A stretch of DNA of 64,000 nt from Parolsenella massiliensis (GTDB lineage: Bacteria > Actinomycetota > Coriobacteriia > Coriobacteriales > Atopobiaceae). The stretch lies in NCBI RefSeq assembly GCF_900143685.1, contig NZ_LT671675.1, positions 471,111-535,110 of the forward strand, written 5' to 3'. A program made the position numbers and the translations under genes. Positions within the stretch are counted from its first letter, which is position 1; each line of letters starts with the position of its first letter. The notes below the pieces were generated by a model, which worked only from the letters and a program-made list of their open reading frames with translations, was not told where the DNA came from and did no database searches. This document shows positions 13,963-23,154 of this stretch, one piece after another.

Positions 13963-14754
13963 ATGCAGGACATGAACCAGACCGGGGCGCCGCAGGGAAC
14001 GATTGCGGTGCTCATCGACTACGAGAACCTCGCGTTGGGGACGGGCAAGCGCCGCCGCGGCGGCCACCAGCAGCCCGGCCCCGCGCCCGACGTCAAGCGC
14101 ATCCTGGCGCGCCTCGTCGACAAGGGCCGCATCGTCTCCAAGCGCGCCTACTGCGACTGGCAGCGCTTCGAGGACGTGGTGACGCCGCTGCACGAGCTGG
14201 GCATCGAGCTCATCGAGATCCCGGACCGCGCGCACACGGGCAAGAACTCCGCGGACATCCGCCTGTCGGTGGACGCCATGGAGATGTGCCTCACCAAGTC
14301 CCACATCGACACGTTCGCCATCCTGTCGGGCGACTCGGACTTCTCGCCGCTCGTCTCGAAGCTGCGCGAGTTCGACAAGACCGTCATCGGCGTAGGCATG
14401 CGCGAGTCCACGAGCTCGCTGCTCGCCGAGGTGTGCGACGAGTTCATCTTCTACGAGGACATCGTCTCGCCCGGCGGCATCCCCGAGTACGAGAGCCGCG
14501 TGGCGCAAGACAAGCGCCCGTGCTACAAGCTACTGCTCGAGACGATCGACGCACTTCAGGGCGAGGCGGACGGCTTCATCCTGGCGTCTCTGCTCAAGGG
14601 CGCCATGCGTCGCAAGCAGCCGCAGTTCTCGGAGCGCACGTACGGGTTCCGCTCATTCACGGCGCTGCTCACGGAGGCGGCGGAGCTGGGCCTCATCAAG
14701 ATTCATAACGACCAGCGCAGCGGCACGGCCGTTGTCGACGGTTTTTGCGAGTAA
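13963..14754 (+). CDS. NYN/PIN-like putative RNase with C-terminal LOTUS (OST-HTH) domain
   Basis: A 263-residue protein of the LabA/DUF88 type. The N-terminal NYN domain (about residues 7-165) has the acidic active-site residues in VLIDYENL, NSADIRLSVDAMEM and LSGDSDFSPLVSKLRE. The C-terminal LOTUS/OST-HTH domain (about residues 178-262) reads KRPCYKLLLETIDAL ... RTYGFRSFTALLTEA ... TAVVDGF. NYN domains are metal-dependent ribonucleases and LOTUS domains bind RNA, so an RNA-processing role is likely; the target is unknown. It sits 4 bases after the fusion gene and 13 bases before the HEAT-repeat gene, in one apparent operon. Confidence 0.87.
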   Translation: MQDMNQTGAPQGTIAVLIDYENLALGTGKRRRGGHQQPGPAPDVKRILARLVDKGRIVSKRAYCDWQRFEDVVTPLHELGIELIEIPDRAHTGKNSADIRLSVDAMEMCLTKSHIDTFAILSGDSDFSPLVSKLREFDKTVIGVGMRESTSSLLAEVCDEFIFYEDIVSPGGIPEYESRVAQDKRPCYKLLLETIDALQGEADGFILASLLKGAMRRKQPQFSERTYGFRSFTALLTEAAELGLIKIHNDQRSGTAVVDGFCE

Positions 14755-14767
14755 GGGAGAAGATCAC

Positions 14768-15388
14768 ATGACCGAGGAGAACACCACGCCCACGCGCAGG
14801 AAGCTTGGCGAGGGCGTCATCACCATGGTTGACCGCCTCATCGACGAGCTTTCCGGCCCCATCCGCCGCACACGCCAGGAGGCCGCCTCGTCTCTGGCCG
14901 AGATGGCCCGCGAGCATCCCGAGTCCGTCGAGGCGGACGTCGAGCGCATCACCGAGGCGCTCGTGGACGCGCTGTACCGCCCCGAGGCCCAGACACGCTG
15001 GGAGGCCCTGGGGGCGCTGCGCGAGATTGCCACGAACCACCCAGAGCTCGCCGCTCAGGCCTACGAGGGCGCCGAGGCCTCGCTGTTCGACGAGAACTCG
15101 AGCCGCGTGCGCATCGAGGCCTTCCGCCTGCTGGCGCGTCTGGGCGCATCCTCGCCCGAGCTGTCCGACAAGGTCTGGCCGCTGCTCGACGAGGCCATCC
15201 AGTGCTTCCACGGCGACCTGGGCTACCGCGACATGCTCGACAGCCTGCTCGAGTTCGCCGAGGGCAACGCGAGCGACGCCTCCAAGCAGGCGCTCGTGGA
15301 CCGCATCAGCTTTGACGTCACGGGCGGCCGCGGCTACGTCAAGACGTGCTCGGCCAAGATTGTCGACGCCGTGAAGGCCGGCAAGTAG
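14768..15388 (+). CDS. HEAT-repeat protein
   Basis: A 206-residue all-helical protein made of HEAT-like repeats, for example RRTRQEAASSLAEMAREHPE, then a repeat with TRWEALGALREIATNHPEL and one with SRVRIEAFRLLARLGASSPE. Such solenoids are protein-binding scaffolds; no catalytic motif is visible. The ATG at 14768 follows AAGGGAGAAG; the frame is open upstream but into the previous gene. It lies directly downstream of the NYN-LOTUS gene and may be its partner, which is inference from position only. Confidence 0.75.
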   Translation: MTEENTTPTRRKLGEGVITMVDRLIDELSGPIRRTRQEAASSLAEMAREHPESVEADVERITEALVDALYRPEAQTRWEALGALREIATNHPELAAQAYEGAEASLFDENSSRVRIEAFRLLARLGASSPELSDKVWPLLDEAIQCFHGDLGYRDMLDSLLEFAEGNASDASKQALVDRISFDVTGGRGYVKTCSAKIVDAVKAGK

Positions 15389-15486
15389 CGTTCGTTTCCG
15401 TCACGTGACGCTCGGGCCCTCGTGGCCCGGAAGCCCGCGTGGGTCCACGTACAATCTCGGCACACTCACGTAAGAAGGGGGACGGC

Positions 15487-16581
15487 ATGCGCCACCAGGT
15501 AACGCTCATTCCGGGAGACGGCATCGGGCCAGAGATCTCTGCCGCCATGCAGCAGGTCGTTGAGGCCACGGGCGTCGAGGTTGACTGGCACGTCCAGCAG
15601 GCCGGCGCCAAGGTCATGGACGAGGAGGGCACGCCGCTTCCCGAGCGCGTCCTGGAGTCAGTCCGCGAGACGGGCACGGCCATCAAGGGCCCCGTCACCA
15701 CGCCGGTGGGCTCGGGCTTCCGCAGCGTCAACGTGGCACTGCGTCGCGCGTTCGACCTGTACGCCTGCGTGCGCCCCTGCCTGTCCATGCCCGGTGACGG
15801 CAGCCGCTACGAGGACGTGGACCTCGTGATCGTGCGCGAGAACACCGAGGACCTCTACGCGGGCATCGAGTTCGAGCAGGGCTCTGCGGGCGCACGCTCC
15901 ATCATGGAGACGGTCGCGGCGCAGGGAGCGGGCACCATCAAGCCCGACTCCGCCATCTCGCTCAAGCCCATCAGCGTGAGCGGCTCGGAGCGCATCGTGC
16001 GCTACGCGTTCGACTACGCCCGCGCCAACGGCCGCCACAAGGTCACGGCCGTGCACAAGGCCAACATCATGAAGTGCACGGACGGCCTGTTCCTGCACAC
16101 GGCGCAGCGCGTGGCCGAGCAGTACCCCGACATCGCGTTCGACGCCAAGATCGTGGACGCCACGTGCATGGGCCTCGTCCAGAACCCGGACGACTTCGAC
16201 GTACTCGTGCTTCCCAACCTCTACGGCGACATCGTGAGCGACCTGTGCGCCGGCCTCGTGGGCGGCCTGGGCCTGGCCCCCGGCGCCAACATCGGTGCCA
16301 ACCAGGCCATCTTCGAGGCAACCCACGGCAGCGCCCCCGACATTGCGGGCAAGGACGTAGCCAACCCCACGGCCATGATCCTGTCGGCCGCCATGATGCT
16401 CGACCACCTGGGCGAGGGGCAGGCCGCCGGCCGCATCCGCACGGCCGTGCGCCAGGTGCTGTCTGCCGGCGAGCAGGTCACGGCAGACATTCGCCGCCAG
16501 CTCACCGGCAGCACGGACGGCGCGGTGGGCACGCGCGCCTATGGAGCTGCCGTCGCGAGCGCCGTGAGCGCGCTCTCCTAG
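15487..16581 (+). CDS. icd: Isocitrate/isopropylmalate dehydrogenase family protein, probably NAD-dependent isocitrate dehydrogenase
   Basis: A 364-residue decarboxylating dehydrogenase. Motifs are LIPGDGIGPEI at the N-terminus, the substrate-binding GSGFRSVNVALRRAFDLYA, VRENTEDLYAGIE, the catalytic HKANIMKCTDG, and the nucleotide-binding EATHGSAPDIAGKDVANP. The Ser-containing phosphate loop and the RENTEDLY stretch fit NAD-linked isocitrate or homoisocitrate dehydrogenase rather than LeuB. It would convert isocitrate to 2-oxoglutarate for glutamate synthesis. ATG 15487 follows AAGAAGGGGGA. No other TCA or leucine genes are adjacent, so substrate assignment is moderate. Confidence 0.8.
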   Translation: MRHQVTLIPGDGIGPEISAAMQQVVEATGVEVDWHVQQAGAKVMDEEGTPLPERVLESVRETGTAIKGPVTTPVGSGFRSVNVALRRAFDLYACVRPCLSMPGDGSRYEDVDLVIVRENTEDLYAGIEFEQGSAGARSIMETVAAQGAGTIKPDSAISLKPISVSGSERIVRYAFDYARANGRHKVTAVHKANIMKCTDGLFLHTAQRVAEQYPDIAFDAKIVDATCMGLVQNPDDFDVLVLPNLYGDIVSDLCAGLVGGLGLAPGANIGANQAIFEATHGSAPDIAGKDVANPTAMILSAAMMLDHLGEGQAAGRIRTAVRQVLSAGEQVTADIRRQLTGSTDGAVGTRAYGAAVASAVSALS

Positions 16582-16620
16582 GGCGTGCGGGGGTAGACTT
16601 ACACAGAATAAGGGAGTCGT

Positions 16621-16646
16621 GGCCGGGCGCCTGGGTGCGCCCGGCC
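16621..16646 (+). promoter_or_regulatory. Perfect 10-bp hairpin upstream of the foldase gene
   Basis: GGCCGGGCGC, loop CTGGGT, GCGCCCGGCC. There is no T-tract. It lies 26 bases before the ATG at 16673 and between icd and the foldase gene, in the place where a weak terminator or 5' leader structure would act. Confidence 0.55.
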
Positions 16647-16672
16647 GCATGATTGAGCAGGGAGTTTCTCGC

Positions 16673-17557
16673 ATGGCAAACAAGCAGGGCGACAAGGGCG
16701 CCCACAAGTCCGCAAACGGCTCGCCCAAGCAGCTGGCAATGCCCGTCGTCGCGGCAGCCGTCGTCGTCGCGCTCGTGGTGGGCGTGCTTCTCGGCCACTT
16801 CGTCCTGGGTGGCAGCGCGCTGTCGGCGTCGTTCTCGGGCAAGACGAGCGTGTCCGAGGGGGACCTGGACCAGGTCATCGCCACCTACACGTACAAGGGC
16901 AAGACCGAGAACGTCACCGTGCGTGACGCCATCGAGTCCCAAAGGTCGCTCGACGCCGTGAAGGACTCGGACGGCAACTACACGCTGCCCAACGCCGACT
17001 CCGCGCTGGCCGTGGCGCGCAACAAGATCCTCGCGCAGGTGGCCTCCGACGAAGGCATCACCGTCTCCGACGACGAGCTGGGCAGCTACGCCGAGCAGAT
17101 CCTGGGCTCGTCTGACATCTCCTCGATCGCCTCCCAGTACGGCCTCACCGAGGACCAGGCCAAGGACGTCATCCGTCAGAGCGCCGCGATGTACAAGCTC
17201 AAGCAGCAGGTGTGCTCCACCGATGCCGGCACCATGCCCGAGGCGCCCGCGGCTCCCGCCGAGAACGACCAGGACGCCGCCACGGCCGACTACGGCGCCT
17301 ACATCGTGGGCCTGCTCGGAGACGAGTGGGACTCCTCGAGCAACACCTGGGCGCGCACGGACGGCCCGTACTACGAGGCCCTGAAGGACGAGACCTGGAC
17401 GCCCGACTCCGCCACCTACGCCCAGGCGCAGATCGCCTACTCGGTTGCCTACCAGCAGTACGCCCAGCAGGCCAGCTCCTCGAGCACCGAGTGGACCAAC
17501 TACGTGAACGGCATCCTGTCGAGCGCCTCCATCCAGATCGCCACGCTCGGCGCCTAA
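16673..17557 (+). CDS. Membrane-anchored SurA N-domain-like foldase/chaperone
   Basis: A 294-residue exported protein. A short basic cytoplasmic N-terminus is followed by one membrane anchor (about residues 24-50, AMPVVAAAVVVALVVGVLLG), then an extracytoplasmic domain with the helical SurA/PrsA-type pattern: SALAVARNKILAQVASDEGITVSDDELGSYAEQ and YGLTEDQAKDVIRQSAAMYKLKQQV. I see no parvulin PPIase domain, so it is a chaperone-like relative rather than a full PrsA. ATG 16673 follows GGGAG. The stop is 9 bases before the next gene. Confidence 0.65.
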   Translation: MANKQGDKGAHKSANGSPKQLAMPVVAAAVVVALVVGVLLGHFVLGGSALSASFSGKTSVSEGDLDQVIATYTYKGKTENVTVRDAIESQRSLDAVKDSDGNYTLPNADSALAVARNKILAQVASDEGITVSDDELGSYAEQILGSSDISSIASQYGLTEDQAKDVIRQSAAMYKLKQQVCSTDAGTMPEAPAAPAENDQDAATADYGAYIVGLLGDEWDSSSNTWARTDGPYYEALKDETWTPDSATYAQAQIAYSVAYQQYAQQASSSSTEWTNYVNGILSSASIQIATLGA

Positions 17558-17566
17558 GGAACGTTC

Positions 17567-18775
17567 GTGGACCTTATCGTCAGCAGGTGTCTGTTGGGCG
17601 AGCGCTGCCGCTATGACGGTGGCGCTCGCCCTTCTGCTTGCGTGGCCGCCCTGTGCGAGACCGTGCGCGGGGCGGGAGGCCGCGTGGTGGGCGTGTGTCC
17701 CGAGACGGACGGCGGGCTAGGCTGTCCGCGCCCACCCGCGGAGATTCGCGGGGACCGCGTCGTCACGGTGGGTGGCACCGATGTGACGCATGCCTACGAG
17801 AGGGGAGTGGGCGCCGCGCTCGACCGCGCAAGGGAGTGCTCGGCGCCGCTTGCCGTCCTGAAGGCCAAGAGCCCTGCCTGCGGTCACGGCCTGGTCTACG
17901 ATGGGAGCTTCACAGGGAGACTCGTGAGTGGCTCGGGGCTTCTTTCCCGGGCGCTCGAGAGGGAGGGGATCGTCGTGGTTGATGAGAGCGTCGTCGAGGG
18001 GTGCCGCGCGAGCGTGGAGCACCCGGTGGCCATCGTGCTTGGCAGCGGGCTTGGCGCACTTGCCGGGCTCGTGAAGCCCGTTCGTCGCATTCCGTACGAG
18101 GACATCGAGGGGTTCCCGGCGCACGCCCGCCCCATTCCCGGCCACAGGTTCGAGGCCACGGTCGGCACGCTCGACGGCGTGCCCGTCGTCGTCTATCCGG
18201 GCCGCGTCCACCTCTACCAGGGCTATGGTCCGGCCGAGGTGGCCTCCCTCGTGCGCCATGCGCACAAGCTTGGCTGCCGTGACATCATCTTCGCCTGCTC
18301 CACCGGCGCCATCGTGGGCCGCGGGCACGTGGGCCTGGGCCTCATCACGGACCACCTCAACCTCACGGGCGCCAACCCCCTCATCGAGGACGAGGACCTC
18401 ACCTGCGTCGACTCGCCGTTCGTGGGCATGACGGACGCCTACACGCCCTACCTGCGCGAGCTCGCGCTTGACGTTGCGCGTGAGCAGGGCATCGAGCTGC
18501 AGCAGGGCGTCTACGCCGGCCTTCTGGGCCCCAGCTTCGAGACGGCCGCCGAGGTTGCGGCGCTGGGGTGCCTCGGCGTGTCGTTTGCGGGCATGTCGCT
18601 CGTGTGCGAGGCCATCATGGCCCACGCACTGGGCATGAACGTGCTGGGGCTCACGCTTGCCGCCAACATGGCGGGAGAGGCGGGCATCACACACGAGAGC
18701 GTCCTGGAGGTCGCCGGCCAGCACGAGGCAGACTTCGAGCGCCTCGTCCGCGGGGTCCTCGCGCGCCTCAAGTAG
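17567..18775 (+). CDS. DUF523 (TudS-type thiouracil desulfidase) fused to purine nucleoside phosphorylase
   Basis: A 402-residue two-domain protein. Residues 1-145 are DUF523, the family that includes the [4Fe-4S] desulfidase TudS. The three expected cluster cysteines are Cys8 (SRCLLGERCRYDG), Cys44 (GVCPETDGGLGCPRPP) and Cys105 (KAKSPACGHG), with the neighbouring acidic Glu46 and Ser102 also kept. Residues 152-402 are a trimeric-type purine nucleoside phosphorylase with all key residues: VLGSGLG, PGHRFEA, PGRVHLYQGY, GPSFETAAE, GMSLVCE and Asn in LAANMAG. A combined enzyme could remove sulfur from, and phosphorolyse, thionucleosides; that pairing is inference. GTG 17567 follows AAGGA. A terminator follows. 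Confidence 0.85.
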   Translation: MDLIVSRCLLGERCRYDGGARPSACVAALCETVRGAGGRVVGVCPETDGGLGCPRPPAEIRGDRVVTVGGTDVTHAYERGVGAALDRARECSAPLAVLKAKSPACGHGLVYDGSFTGRLVSGSGLLSRALEREGIVVVDESVVEGCRASVEHPVAIVLGSGLGALAGLVKPVRRIPYEDIEGFPAHARPIPGHRFEATVGTLDGVPVVVYPGRVHLYQGYGPAEVASLVRHAHKLGCRDIIFACSTGAIVGRGHVGLGLITDHLNLTGANPLIEDEDLTCVDSPFVGMTDAYTPYLRELALDVAREQGIELQQGVYAGLLGPSFETAAEVAALGCLGVSFAGMSLVCEAIMAHALGMNVLGLTLAANMAGEAGITHESVLEVAGQHEADFERLVRGVLARLK

Positions 18776-18801
18776 GGGAGCCTCACATATCACGTCCATG
18801 T

Positions 18802-18836
18802 GGGCGGTCCGGAATCACATCCGGGCCGCCCGCTTT
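18802..18836 (+). terminator. Rho-independent terminator after the DUF523-PNP gene
   Basis: GGGCGGTCCGGA pairs with TCCGGGCCGCCC (12 bp with one G-U), loop ATCACA, followed by GCTTTTT. Confidence 0.9.
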
Positions 18837-19741: not shown

Positions 19742-22324
19742 ATGGAAGACCGCATGTACATTGCGCTCGCAGGCAACCCGAACTGCGGCAAGACCACGCT
19801 GTTCAACGCCCTCACCGGCTCGAACGGCTACGTGGGTAACTGGCCCGGCGTCACGGTCGAGAAGAAGGAGGCGGCCTGGAGGCGCGACAAGTCCGTCACG
19901 TTCACCGACCTGCCCGGCATCTACTCGCTCTCGCCGTACTCACCCGAGGAGATCGTCTCGCGCGACTACCTCATCCAGAACCGCCCGAGCGCCGTCATCG
20001 ACCTCGTCGACTCGACGAACCTCGAGCGCAACCTCTACCTCACCACGCAGATCCTCGAGTGCGGCCTGCCCGTCGTGCTGGGCCTCAACATGCTCGACCT
20101 GCTCGAGAAGAGCGGCGACAAGATCGACACCGACGCGCTGTCCCGCGAGCTGGGCTGCAAGGTGATCCAGGTCTCCGCGCTTCGCGAGAAGAACACCGAC
20201 GAGCTCGTGAAGCTTGCCGTCGAGGCGGGCAAGGCCGGGAAAGCCTCCGCGCCCGTCCACGTCTTCACCGACGAGGTCGAGGCCGCCCTCACCAAGATCG
20301 AGGAGGGCATCGCCGGCAAGTGCGACGCCAGCCTCAACCGCTGGTTCGCCATCAAGGTCTTCGAGCGCGACGCCGCCGCCATCGAGCCGCTCGGCCTCAC
20401 GAACGCCGAGCTCGAGGCCTTCGAGGCCACGATCAAGGCCGTCGAGGCCTCCCGCGACGACGACGCCGAGTCCATCATCACCTCGGACCGCTACGAGTGG
20501 ATCGCCCGCGTCATGGACGCCTGCGTCGTGAAGGCCCCCAAGAAGCTCTCCACGTCCGAGAAGATCGACAAGGTCGTCACGAACCGCATCCTGGGCCTGC
20601 CGATCTTCGTCGTCATCATGTTCCTCGTGTACTACATCGCTATCTCCACGGTGGGCACGGCCGGCACCGTCTGGGTGAACGACAACCTGTTCTCCGACGG
20701 CTTCTTCGTGAACGGCACGAGCGCCGCCCAGTACGACGAGGACACCGAGGCCTGGTCTGACAACCACTACGGCGACCAGATCGACGGCTTCATCGCCGCC
20801 GCCACCGATGACGGCGTGATCACCGACGACGAGGCCACCGAGGTCTCCGACGCCGTGGCCGCCTACCAGGAGGACTCCGAGGACGCCGACGCGCTCGCCA
20901 CGATCGACGAGTTCGAGGCCAAGGCCGCGGGCGTCACCGCCTCCGACGTCGTCATCACCGACGAGGACGGCAACGACACCGACGAGACGATCCCCGCCGT
21001 CACCGCGACCGACTTCCAGGCCGCTATCGCCGGCTCGCTCGAGGAGCCCGACCCCGCCGACTACGACGGCTTCGTGCCCTCCATCCCCGACGCCGCCTCT
21101 GACGCGCTCGACAACGCCGGCGCCTCCGACGCCGTGAAGTCACTCGTCGTCGATGGCATCATCGGCGGCGTGGGCTCGGTGCTCGGCTTCATTCCGCAGA
21201 TGTTCGTCCTGTTCGTCCTGCTGTGCTTCCTAGAGGACTGCGGCTACATGAGCCGCGTCGCCTTCGTCATGGACCGCGTGTTCCGCCGCTTCGGCCTGTC
21301 GGGCAAGTCGTTCATCCCGATGCTCATCAGCTCCGGCTGCGGCGTCCCGGGCGTCCTGTCCACCAAGACGATCGAGAACGAGAAGGACCGTCGCATGACG
21401 GCCATGCTCACCACGATGATCCCCTGCGGCGCCAAGCAGCCGATCATCGCCCTCGTCATGGGCGTGCTCATCGGCGGCTCCGACGCCTGGTGGGTTGCCC
21501 CGATGTTCTACTTCCTCGGCCTTGCCGCCATCATCGTCTCCGGCATCATGCTGAAGAAGACCAAGCCCTTCGCCGGCGAGCCCACCCCGTTCGTCATGGA
21601 GCTCCCCGACTACCACTTCCCGTCCATCAAGTCCTGGTGGCTGCACATCTGGGAGCGCGTGAGCGCCTACATCAAGAAGGCCGGCACGATCATCTTCGCC
21701 GCCGCCGTCGTGGTGTGGTTCCTCTCCAACTTCGGCTTCACGGACGCCGGCTTTGGCTTCCTGGCCGACGGCGACATCGAGCAGTCCCTGCTCAAGGTGA
21801 TCGCCGGTGCCGTGTCCTGGATCTTCGCCCCGCTCGGTGCTGACAACTGGATGGCCGCCGCCGCCTCCATCAACGCCCTCATCGCCAAGGAGAACCTCGT
21901 CTCCACGTTCGGCGTCCTGTTTGGCCTGGGCGATGCCACCGAGAACTCCCTGACCATGTGGAGCGGCTTCGCCTCCATGTTCACGGACGCCTCCGGCATC
22001 ATGCACGCCGGTGCCATGTGCGCCTTCGTGGCCTTCAACATGCTCGATGCCCCGTGCTTCGCCGCCATGGGCACCATCCGCCGCCAGATGGACGACCCCA
22101 AGTGGTTCTGGGCTGCCATCGGCTACCAGTGCGGCTTTGGCTGGATCGTGGGCATGATCATCAACCAGCTGTGGGAGCTGATCGTGCTCGGCAACTTCGG
22201 CGTGTGGACCGTCGTGGCCTTCGTGGCCCTGGCTGCCATCCTGTTCATGCTGTTCCGTCCGGCGCCCAAGTTCGAGGGCAAGGACGAGCACATCCTCGAC
22301 ACGCTCGCCGAGGCCGAGAAGTAG
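19742..22324 (+). CDS. feoB: Ferrous iron transport protein B with a large acidic extracytoplasmic insert
   Basis: The inner-membrane Fe(II) transporter, 860 residues. The N-terminal GTPase has G1 GNPNCGKTT (residues 9-17), GNWPGVTVEKKE, G3 DLPGIYSLSPYSPEE and G4 LNMLDLL. The membrane part has the Cys-containing gate motifs SSGCGVPGVLSTK and IPCGAKQPI. Between the first membrane helix (about 284-310) and GGVGSVLGFIPQM (near 474) lies an extra block of about 140 residues, very rich in Asp, Glu, Ala and Thr, which topology places outside the membrane. Usual FeoB has only a short loop there. ATG follows GGGAG. It is transcribed with the two feoA genes and closed by a terminator. Confidence 0.94.
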   Translation: MEDRMYIALAGNPNCGKTTLFNALTGSNGYVGNWPGVTVEKKEAAWRRDKSVTFTDLPGIYSLSPYSPEEIVSRDYLIQNRPSAVIDLVDSTNLERNLYLTTQILECGLPVVLGLNMLDLLEKSGDKIDTDALSRELGCKVIQVSALREKNTDELVKLAVEAGKAGKASAPVHVFTDEVEAALTKIEEGIAGKCDASLNRWFAIKVFERDAAAIEPLGLTNAELEAFEATIKAVEASRDDDAESIITSDRYEWIARVMDACVVKAPKKLSTSEKIDKVVTNRILGLPIFVVIMFLVYYIAISTVGTAGTVWVNDNLFSDGFFVNGTSAAQYDEDTEAWSDNHYGDQIDGFIAAATDDGVITDDEATEVSDAVAAYQEDSEDADALATIDEFEAKAAGVTASDVVITDEDGNDTDETIPAVTATDFQAAIAGSLEEPDPADYDGFVPSIPDAASDALDNAGASDAVKSLVVDGIIGGVGSVLGFIPQMFVLFVLLCFLEDCGYMSRVAFVMDRVFRRFGLSGKSFIPMLISSGCGVPGVLSTKTIENEKDRRMTAMLTTMIPCGAKQPIIALVMGVLIGGSDAWWVAPMFYFLGLAAIIVSGIMLKKTKPFAGEPTPFVMELPDYHFPSIKSWWLHIWERVSAYIKKAGTIIFAAAVVVWFLSNFGFTDAGFGFLADGDIEQSLLKVIAGAVSWIFAPLGADNWMAAAASINALIAKENLVSTFGVLFGLGDATENSLTMWSGFASMFTDASGIMHAGAMCAFVAFNMLDAPCFAAMGTIRRQMDDPKWFWAAIGYQCGFGWIVGMIINQLWELIVLGNFGVWTVVAFVALAAILFMLFRPAPKFEGKDEHILDTLAEAEK

Positions 22325-22446: not shown

Positions 22447-23154
22447 ATGGCCGAGAACATCAAGGTTGGCATCATCGGGGCGATGGACTCCGAGGTCGAA
22501 CTGCTCAAGTCAAAGGTCGAGGGGGCGCACACTCGCGAGCTCGCCGGCCTTGCGTTTGTCGAGGGCACGCTCGAGGGCGTCGACGTCGTCGTGGTGAAGT
22601 GCGGCGTGGGCAAGGTGAACGCCGCCATGTGCGCCCAGGCCCTCGTGAGCGTGCTGAGCTGCAATCGCATCATCAACACCGGTGTGGCGGGCTCGCTGGA
22701 CAATCGCATCGAGATCGGCGACATCGTGGTCTCAACGGACGCCGTGGAGCACGACATGGATGTCACGGCGCTCGGCTACGCCCCTGGCGAGCATCCTGAC
22801 CTGCATCTCGTTGCCTTTGAGGCGGACACTGCCCTGCGCAGTGCGGTGGTCGTGGCCGCCGGCGAGCTCGATGGCGTGAACGTCTTCGAGGGGCGCGTGT
22901 GCTCGGGCGACCAGTTCATTGGCTCGGCCGCGGCCAAGGAGCGCATCGTCTCGATGTTTGGCGGCATGTGCTGCGAGATGGAGGGTGCGGCCATCGCCCA
23001 CGCCTGCCACGTCGCCGGTGTGCCGTTTGTCATCGTGCGCGCAATCTCCGACAAGGCCGATGACTCGGGCAACGTCGACTACCCAACGTTCGAGAAGGCG
23101 GCTGCGGCGCACTGCGCGAGCATCGTGCTTGCGGCGCTCCCGCGCGTGGCGTAG
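22447..23154 (+). CDS. mtnN: 5'-methylthioadenosine/S-adenosylhomocysteine nucleosidase
   Basis: Cleaves the glycosidic bond of MTA and SAH, releasing adenine; part of the activated methyl cycle. It has 235 residues, close to the family norm. Visible are IIGAMDSEVELL (with the catalytic Glu), NTGVAGSLD, SGDQFIG, CCEMEGAAIAH (ribose-binding Met-Glu) and RAISDKAD with the catalytic Asp. ATG follows GAGAGGGGAG. It has its own short upstream region after the feoB terminator and is therefore separately transcribed. Confidence 0.94.
   Translation: MAENIKVGIIGAMDSEVELLKSKVEGAHTRELAGLAFVEGTLEGVDVVVVKCGVGKVNAAMCAQALVSVLSCNRIINTGVAGSLDNRIEIGDIVVSTDAVEHDMDVTALGYAPGEHPDLHLVAFEADTALRSAVVVAAGELDGVNVFEGRVCSGDQFIGSAAAKERIVSMFGGMCCEMEGAAIAHACHVAGVPFVIVRAISDKADDSGNVDYPTFEKAAAAHCASIVLAALPRVA

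Follow-up and report, generated by a model that had tools for sequence, protein, structure and literature searches.

Why should a TudS-type desulfidase and a purine nucleoside phosphorylase (PNP) share one polypeptide? The question is raised by a gene at 17567..18775 of a 64,000-nucleotide stretch of Parolsenella massiliensis DNA (contig NZ_LT671675.1), referred to here as the window; the gene and the features written below with two dots (..) lie on its plus strand, and positions are those of the window unless a locus handle precedes them. The gene runs as a single frame of 402 amino acids from a GTG start codon and comprises a TudS (PF04463) domain at residues 1-141 (17567..17989) that matches 6z92, a short linker with a conserved SVEHP motif at residues 142-152 (17990..18022), and a trimeric-type PNP (PF01048) domain at residues 153-401 (18023..18769). 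Pfam places 2-thiour_desulf at residues 4-140 (E = 2.2e-36; 125.4 bits against a curated cut-off of 34.7) and PNP_UDP_1 at residues 153-398 (E = 5.6e-35), with no DUF1722 or other domain besides these two, so that the domain search agrees with the sequence-only reading, in which one frame joins a DUF523/TudS domain to a PNP. The protein scores 221.9 against the NCBIfam purine-nucleoside phosphorylase model NF006054, above the cut-off of 218, and narrowly below that of TIGR01697 (189.3 against 197.1). The nearest solved structures are 6z92 for the TudS half and 6tk9 for the PNP half. A Shine-Dalgarno-like AAGGA (17557..17561) overlaps the stop codon of the upstream gene, as in a coupled operon, and a terminator-like hairpin with a T tail lies 3′ of the fusion gene (18800..18833), which together make it look like the last gene of the operon.

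How widespread the fusion is was asked already in the sequence-only reading, and a genome-by-genome search of Atopobiaceae, Coriobacteriaceae, Eggerthellaceae, and a sample of 397 Actinomycetota genomes gave the answer. The full fusion is present in 95 of 140 Atopobiaceae genomes, covering 25 of 35 genera, and in 11 of 60 Coriobacteriaceae, from Collinsella and one other genus, where a twelfth copy is cut by a contig end. It was not found in the approximately 97 Eggerthellaceae genomes, nor was a further one found in the Actinomycetota sample, and a scan of a bacterial and archaeal collection returned it from Coriobacteriia only among the 80 loci listed. A chance or frame artefact was rejected on the domain E-values and the presence of the fusion in 25 genera, misassembly on the full-length fusions with the same gene order in many relatives, and a mobile origin on the lack of any plasmid record carrying it; PADLOC returned no match for the fusion, and a defence role was likewise rejected. 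The fusion is genuine and ancient, and two bacterial families have conserved it. In one genome (G026, L054:4575-5776), a frameshift, either real or a sequencing error, splits the gene. No TudS-PNP fusion was found in published TudS work, with subscription papers mostly beyond the search, and the architecture is apparently undescribed.

The surroundings of the gene are conserved as well, with the order NYN/LOTUS, HEAT, (isocitrate dehydrogenase), SurA-like, fusion kept in nearly all loci examined. In the window, these are an NYN + OST-HTH/LOTUS protein (13963..14754), a HEAT-repeat protein (14732..15388), an isocitrate dehydrogenase-type gene (15439..16581) that is a neighbour in some of the loci, and a SurA/trigger-factor-like protein (16619..17557; weak Pfam match), the constant direct upstream neighbour of the fusion. 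The latter has a hydrophobic stretch at its N terminus, and several TudS-less relatives (L045, L046, L048-L050) have a second SurA/trigger-factor-like copy downstream. The NYN + OST-HTH/LOTUS gene may tie the locus to RNA turnover; no RNA elements were found at 12-26 kb of the window. Downstream of the fusion, FeoB (19742-22324) carries a long acidic, Ala-rich insertion at about residues 310-455.

RudS (TudS-DUF1722), a tRNA 4-thiouridine desulfidase, also combines a TudS domain with a C-terminal partner, but that partner is DUF1722 rather than PNP. Free TudS (58.9%) and RudS (40.1%) together account for 99% of reported TudS proteins (PMC11417400), which puts TudS-PNP in the remaining 1%. RudS demonstrates that TudS can be turned towards tRNA by the domain it is fused to (PMC11417400), and a gene with putative RNA links sits in the conserved locus, so the TudS domain might demodify intact tRNA with the PNP standing in for DUF1722. 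We consider this very improbable, since the protein lacks DUF1722, no tRNA-binding role is known for the PNP fold, which here keeps its small-molecule site, and the free TudS that has been studied is inactive on tRNA (PMC10611767).

The history of the locus bears on whether the two halves depend on each other. Fused and TudS-less copies fall into a single clade of the PNP tree (SH-aLRT 90), where Coriobacteriaceae and Atopobiaceae are each other's sister groups and the copies without TudS branch from within. This topology is explained most simply if the fusion arose once and TudS was later lost repeatedly. At the same locus, some relatives carry PNP alone (L045-L053) and others TudS alone (L057, L209, L210), indicating that the domains work apart; this pattern, in which each half can go while the other stays, speaks against a pathway that requires both steps. 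In two further copies (L055:4089-5066 and L056:4371-5126), the region where PNP would be expected is a short tail behind TudS that Pfam does not recognise and that looks like an eroded PNP. In family f7, known from a single genome, TudS and PNP genes are adjacent and unfused (L039:1838-3283), downstream of HEAT and IDH-like genes, and the diverged PNP has lost the equivalent of human PNP Glu201. In Eggerthellaceae, TudS is instead fused to a GNAT acetyltransferase, PF13302 (L199:1604-2746, L200:1130-2281, L201-L205), an architecture that was not found in the published TudS work searched. The TudS-GNAT protein resembles the present one in having a partner fused at the C terminus of TudS and differs in that the partner is an acetyltransferase. 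TudS in the sister family thus joins an unrelated partner, which calls for caution in reading a pathway from a fusion and weakens the functional reading of any of them, our own included.

Residue conservation in the TudS half was counted over 71 distinct fusions. Cys8 (17588..17590), equivalent to TudS_A Cys10 and a predicted [4Fe-4S] ligand, is Cys in 70 of the 71, with the remaining one gapped; Cys44-Pro-Glu46 (17696..17704), providing a cluster ligand and the catalytic Glu (TudS_A Cys43 and Glu45), is kept in 69, with two gaps; and Arg55 (17729..17731), corresponding to catalytic RudS Arg60 (role from PMC11417400), is Arg in 70. Ser102-Pro103-Ala104-Cys105 (17870..17881) contains the first catalytic Ser, an Ala replacing the second, and the third cluster Cys. 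Save for gaps and the one Arg55 change, Cys8, Cys44, Cys105, Glu46, Arg55, and Ser102 are invariant. The earlier assignment of the three cysteines, Glu46, and Ser102 was therefore correct throughout, and fused homologues conserve the cluster cysteines, so that the desulfidase proposal is not refuted on this point. This set corresponds to the three cluster ligands, Glu general base, conserved Arg, and first Ser described for TudS and RudS (PMC10611767; PMC11417400). The contacts of 4-thio-UMP docked in TudS_A (Arg17, Tyr18, Pro102, and Tyr110) are Arg15, Tyr16, Pro103, and Tyr111 of the window protein, all kept, and comparison of fused with 32 unfused TudS revealed no fusion-specific change at active-site positions. 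Judged by its residues, the fused pocket is of the 4-thiouridine type, the same as in free TudS. The domain thus matches known TudS (PF04463/DUF523; PDB 6z92-6z96) in the three cluster Cys, the Glu, the Arg, the first Ser, and the Arg/Tyr/Pro/Tyr contacts; known TudS, in contrast, is a free single domain, whereas this one is PNP-fused and carries, in the window copy, an Ala where TudS_A has Ser103.

That substitution and the rate of change in the TudS half raise the question of whether the window copy is still a desulfidase. The second catalytic Ser (TudS_A Ser103), which the sequence-only reading leaves unmentioned, is Ala104 in the window copy; across the 71 fusions, Ser occupies the position in 64, with Ala in 5 and Thr in 2. 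Ala occurs there in 8 of 146 TudS, TudS-GNAT and one free TudS among them, and for this reason the second Ser was not taken as defining for membership of the TudS domain. In RudS, a Ser-to-Met change at this position abolishes activity, Ala not being among the changes tested (PMC11417400), and the window copy, with its Ala104, counts as a putative desulfidase. The TudS of the window's genus sits on a long branch in the tree, and dN/dS between two species of that genus is 0.25 for TudS and 0.07 for PNP, compared to 0.08-0.20 and 0.04-0.13, respectively, in other species pairs; the value of 0.25 is the loosest of the pairs tested. Both halves are under purifying selection, which is stronger on PNP. 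The long branch, the dN/dS of 0.25 against 0.07, Ala104, and the complete loss of TudS in related lineages would fit a TudS half that is weakened or no desulfidase at all (through drift, or in a structural or cluster-sensing role), the protein being in effect a PNP. We count the branch, the dN/dS, and Ala104 in the window's genus against our best explanation, in which both halves are enzymes, but still judge a weakened TudS unlikely: the cluster ligands are all retained, as are Glu46, Arg55, and Ser102, dN/dS stays well under 1, the recurrence of Ala in other fusions, TudS-GNAT, and a free TudS (8/146) shows that it is tolerated, and Ser-to-Ala is a milder change than the Ser-to-Met tested in RudS.

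An AlphaFold2 monomer model built with 43 natural fusions had a mean pLDDT of 90.8 and a pTM of 0.90, and the confidently placed short linker implies a fixed domain arrangement. Among PNP structures, the PNP half is matched best by 6tk9 (TM-score 0.85 by target length). It keeps the equivalents of human PNP Ser33, His64, Arg84, His86, Tyr88, Glu201, Met219, Ser220, and Asn243, which in the window protein are the predicted phosphate, ribose, and base ligands Ser160, His193, Arg213, His215, Tyr217, Glu325, Met343, Ser344, and Asn367. Glu325 (18539..18541), the equivalent of the purine base ligand Glu201, is conserved in 70/71 fusions, and Asn367 (18665..18667), the equivalent of the 6-oxopurine ligand Asn243, in 68/71. 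The loop that reads TNAAGG in the signature is altered at residues 243-248 (18293..18310), being ACSTGA in the window's genus and mostly ACATGA in the clade. The PNP site had been called intact, which holds for the phosphate, ribose, and base ligands and fails for this loop. The change spans the whole PNP clade, TudS-less members too, and the base preference of the clade may, because of it, differ from that of known PNPs. The fold and most active-site residues are those of the trimeric PNPs (6tk9 from Thermus, 8swu from Clostridium perfringens, 3la8/3lba from Streptococcus mutans), from which the protein differs in its N-terminal TudS domain and altered loop.

The gene content of the host genomes was examined as well. 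Known trimeric PNPs are purine-specific. ThiI, which makes s4U and is thereby a source of 4-thiouridine, is encoded in 73 of 74 genomes, that of the window included. Exactly one TudS, fused or free, is present in each of the 60 TudS-bearing genomes among the 74 tested (the window's genome also has one), so that the fused domain seems to take the place of the free enzyme. The window's genome encodes two PNP_UDP_1 proteins, the fusion and an MTA/SAH nucleosidase (22447-23154); no PF00591 protein was found in it, and so neither a pyrimidine-nucleoside phosphorylase nor TrpD, nor was a nucleoside hydrolase or uridine phosphorylase. The fused PNP is thus its only recognisable nucleoside phosphorylase, as far as sequence can tell. 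With these three activities missing from the genome and the TNAAGG loop altered, the PNP might also cleave (thio)uridine, both domains acting in turn on 4-thiouridine. There is only a slim chance of this, as the equivalents of the purine ligands Glu201 and Asn243 are conserved and trimeric PNPs as known act on purines alone.

The sequence-only reading had proposed a tandem salvage enzyme for thiopurines or thionucleosides, possibly touching thiopurine drugs in the gut. In the thiopurine version, TudS would make a 6-oxo from a 6-thiopurine nucleoside and PNP would cleave it, or the reverse, for salvage or detoxification. The PNP is a purine enzyme, the domains appear rigidly joined in the model, the altered loop might point to a shifted base preference, and 6-thioguanine from Staphylococcus chromogenes is a naturally occurring thiopurine (PMC7994395). 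Against this, the TudS pocket is that of free TudS, 4-thio-UMP contacts included, without fusion-specific change in the active site; the domains have been lost independently at the same locus; the partner in the sister family is a GNAT; and a single TudS per TudS-bearing genome and ThiI in 73/74 genomes also speak against a tandem enzyme. No paper linking a desulfidase with thioguanine (plus thiouracil) or 6-mercaptopurine was found, subscription papers lying mostly beyond the search. We therefore regard the thiopurine tandem as quite unlikely, and a dedicated desulfidase-phosphorylase of any kind, its two sites acting in turn on one thionucleoside (a thiopurine, or 4-thiouridine with a widened PNP), as hardly less so. 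The suggested part in drug metabolism loses ground with the same literature result and with a family that also inhabits the mouth and rumen, according to two reports (PMC3035223, PMC3035265).

The explanation we prefer, with a probability of roughly 0.6, is a bifunctional salvage protein, two independent enzymes on one chain in the recycling of RNA-derived nucleosides. The [4Fe-4S] TudS domain would desulfurate 4-thiouracil, 4-thiouridine, and 4-thio-UMP, the last of these probably best; such compounds would come from the surroundings or be released when s4U-containing tRNA is turned over. The cluster's free iron would be the exit for sulfide, and the reaction would give back uracil, uridine, or UMP. 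The PNP domain would phosphorolyse purine nucleosides (inosine, guanosine) to the base and ribose-1-phosphate and, by precedent in the PNP family, would form a trimer bearing three TudS heads. The analysis establishes the fusion and its conservation, the residues, the selection, the single TudS per genome, and the confident two-domain model; what each half catalyses, on which substrates, and how the protein assembles is inferred. What the fusion itself would provide is co-expression and equal amounts of both enzymes. In Staphylococcus aureus, 4-thiouracil acts as a poison via Upp unless TudS is present (PMC12210855), and the window's genome encodes Upp. The TudS of Clostridioides difficile, which detoxifies 4-thiouracil (PMC12210855), comes likewise from an anaerobic host-associated bacterium, and its chemistry is likely the same; it is, however, treated as a stand-alone enzyme, with no PNP fusion reported (PMC12210855).

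For the study of these enzymes, relatives with one domain missing at the same locus are natural controls, and the natural Ser103-to-Ala variants bear on the need for the second serine in catalysis. More broadly, the architecture links the young field of TudS desulfidases with purine salvage in Atopobiaceae and Coriobacteriaceae, the relatives of Olsenella, Atopobium, and Collinsella from the mouth, rumen, and gut.
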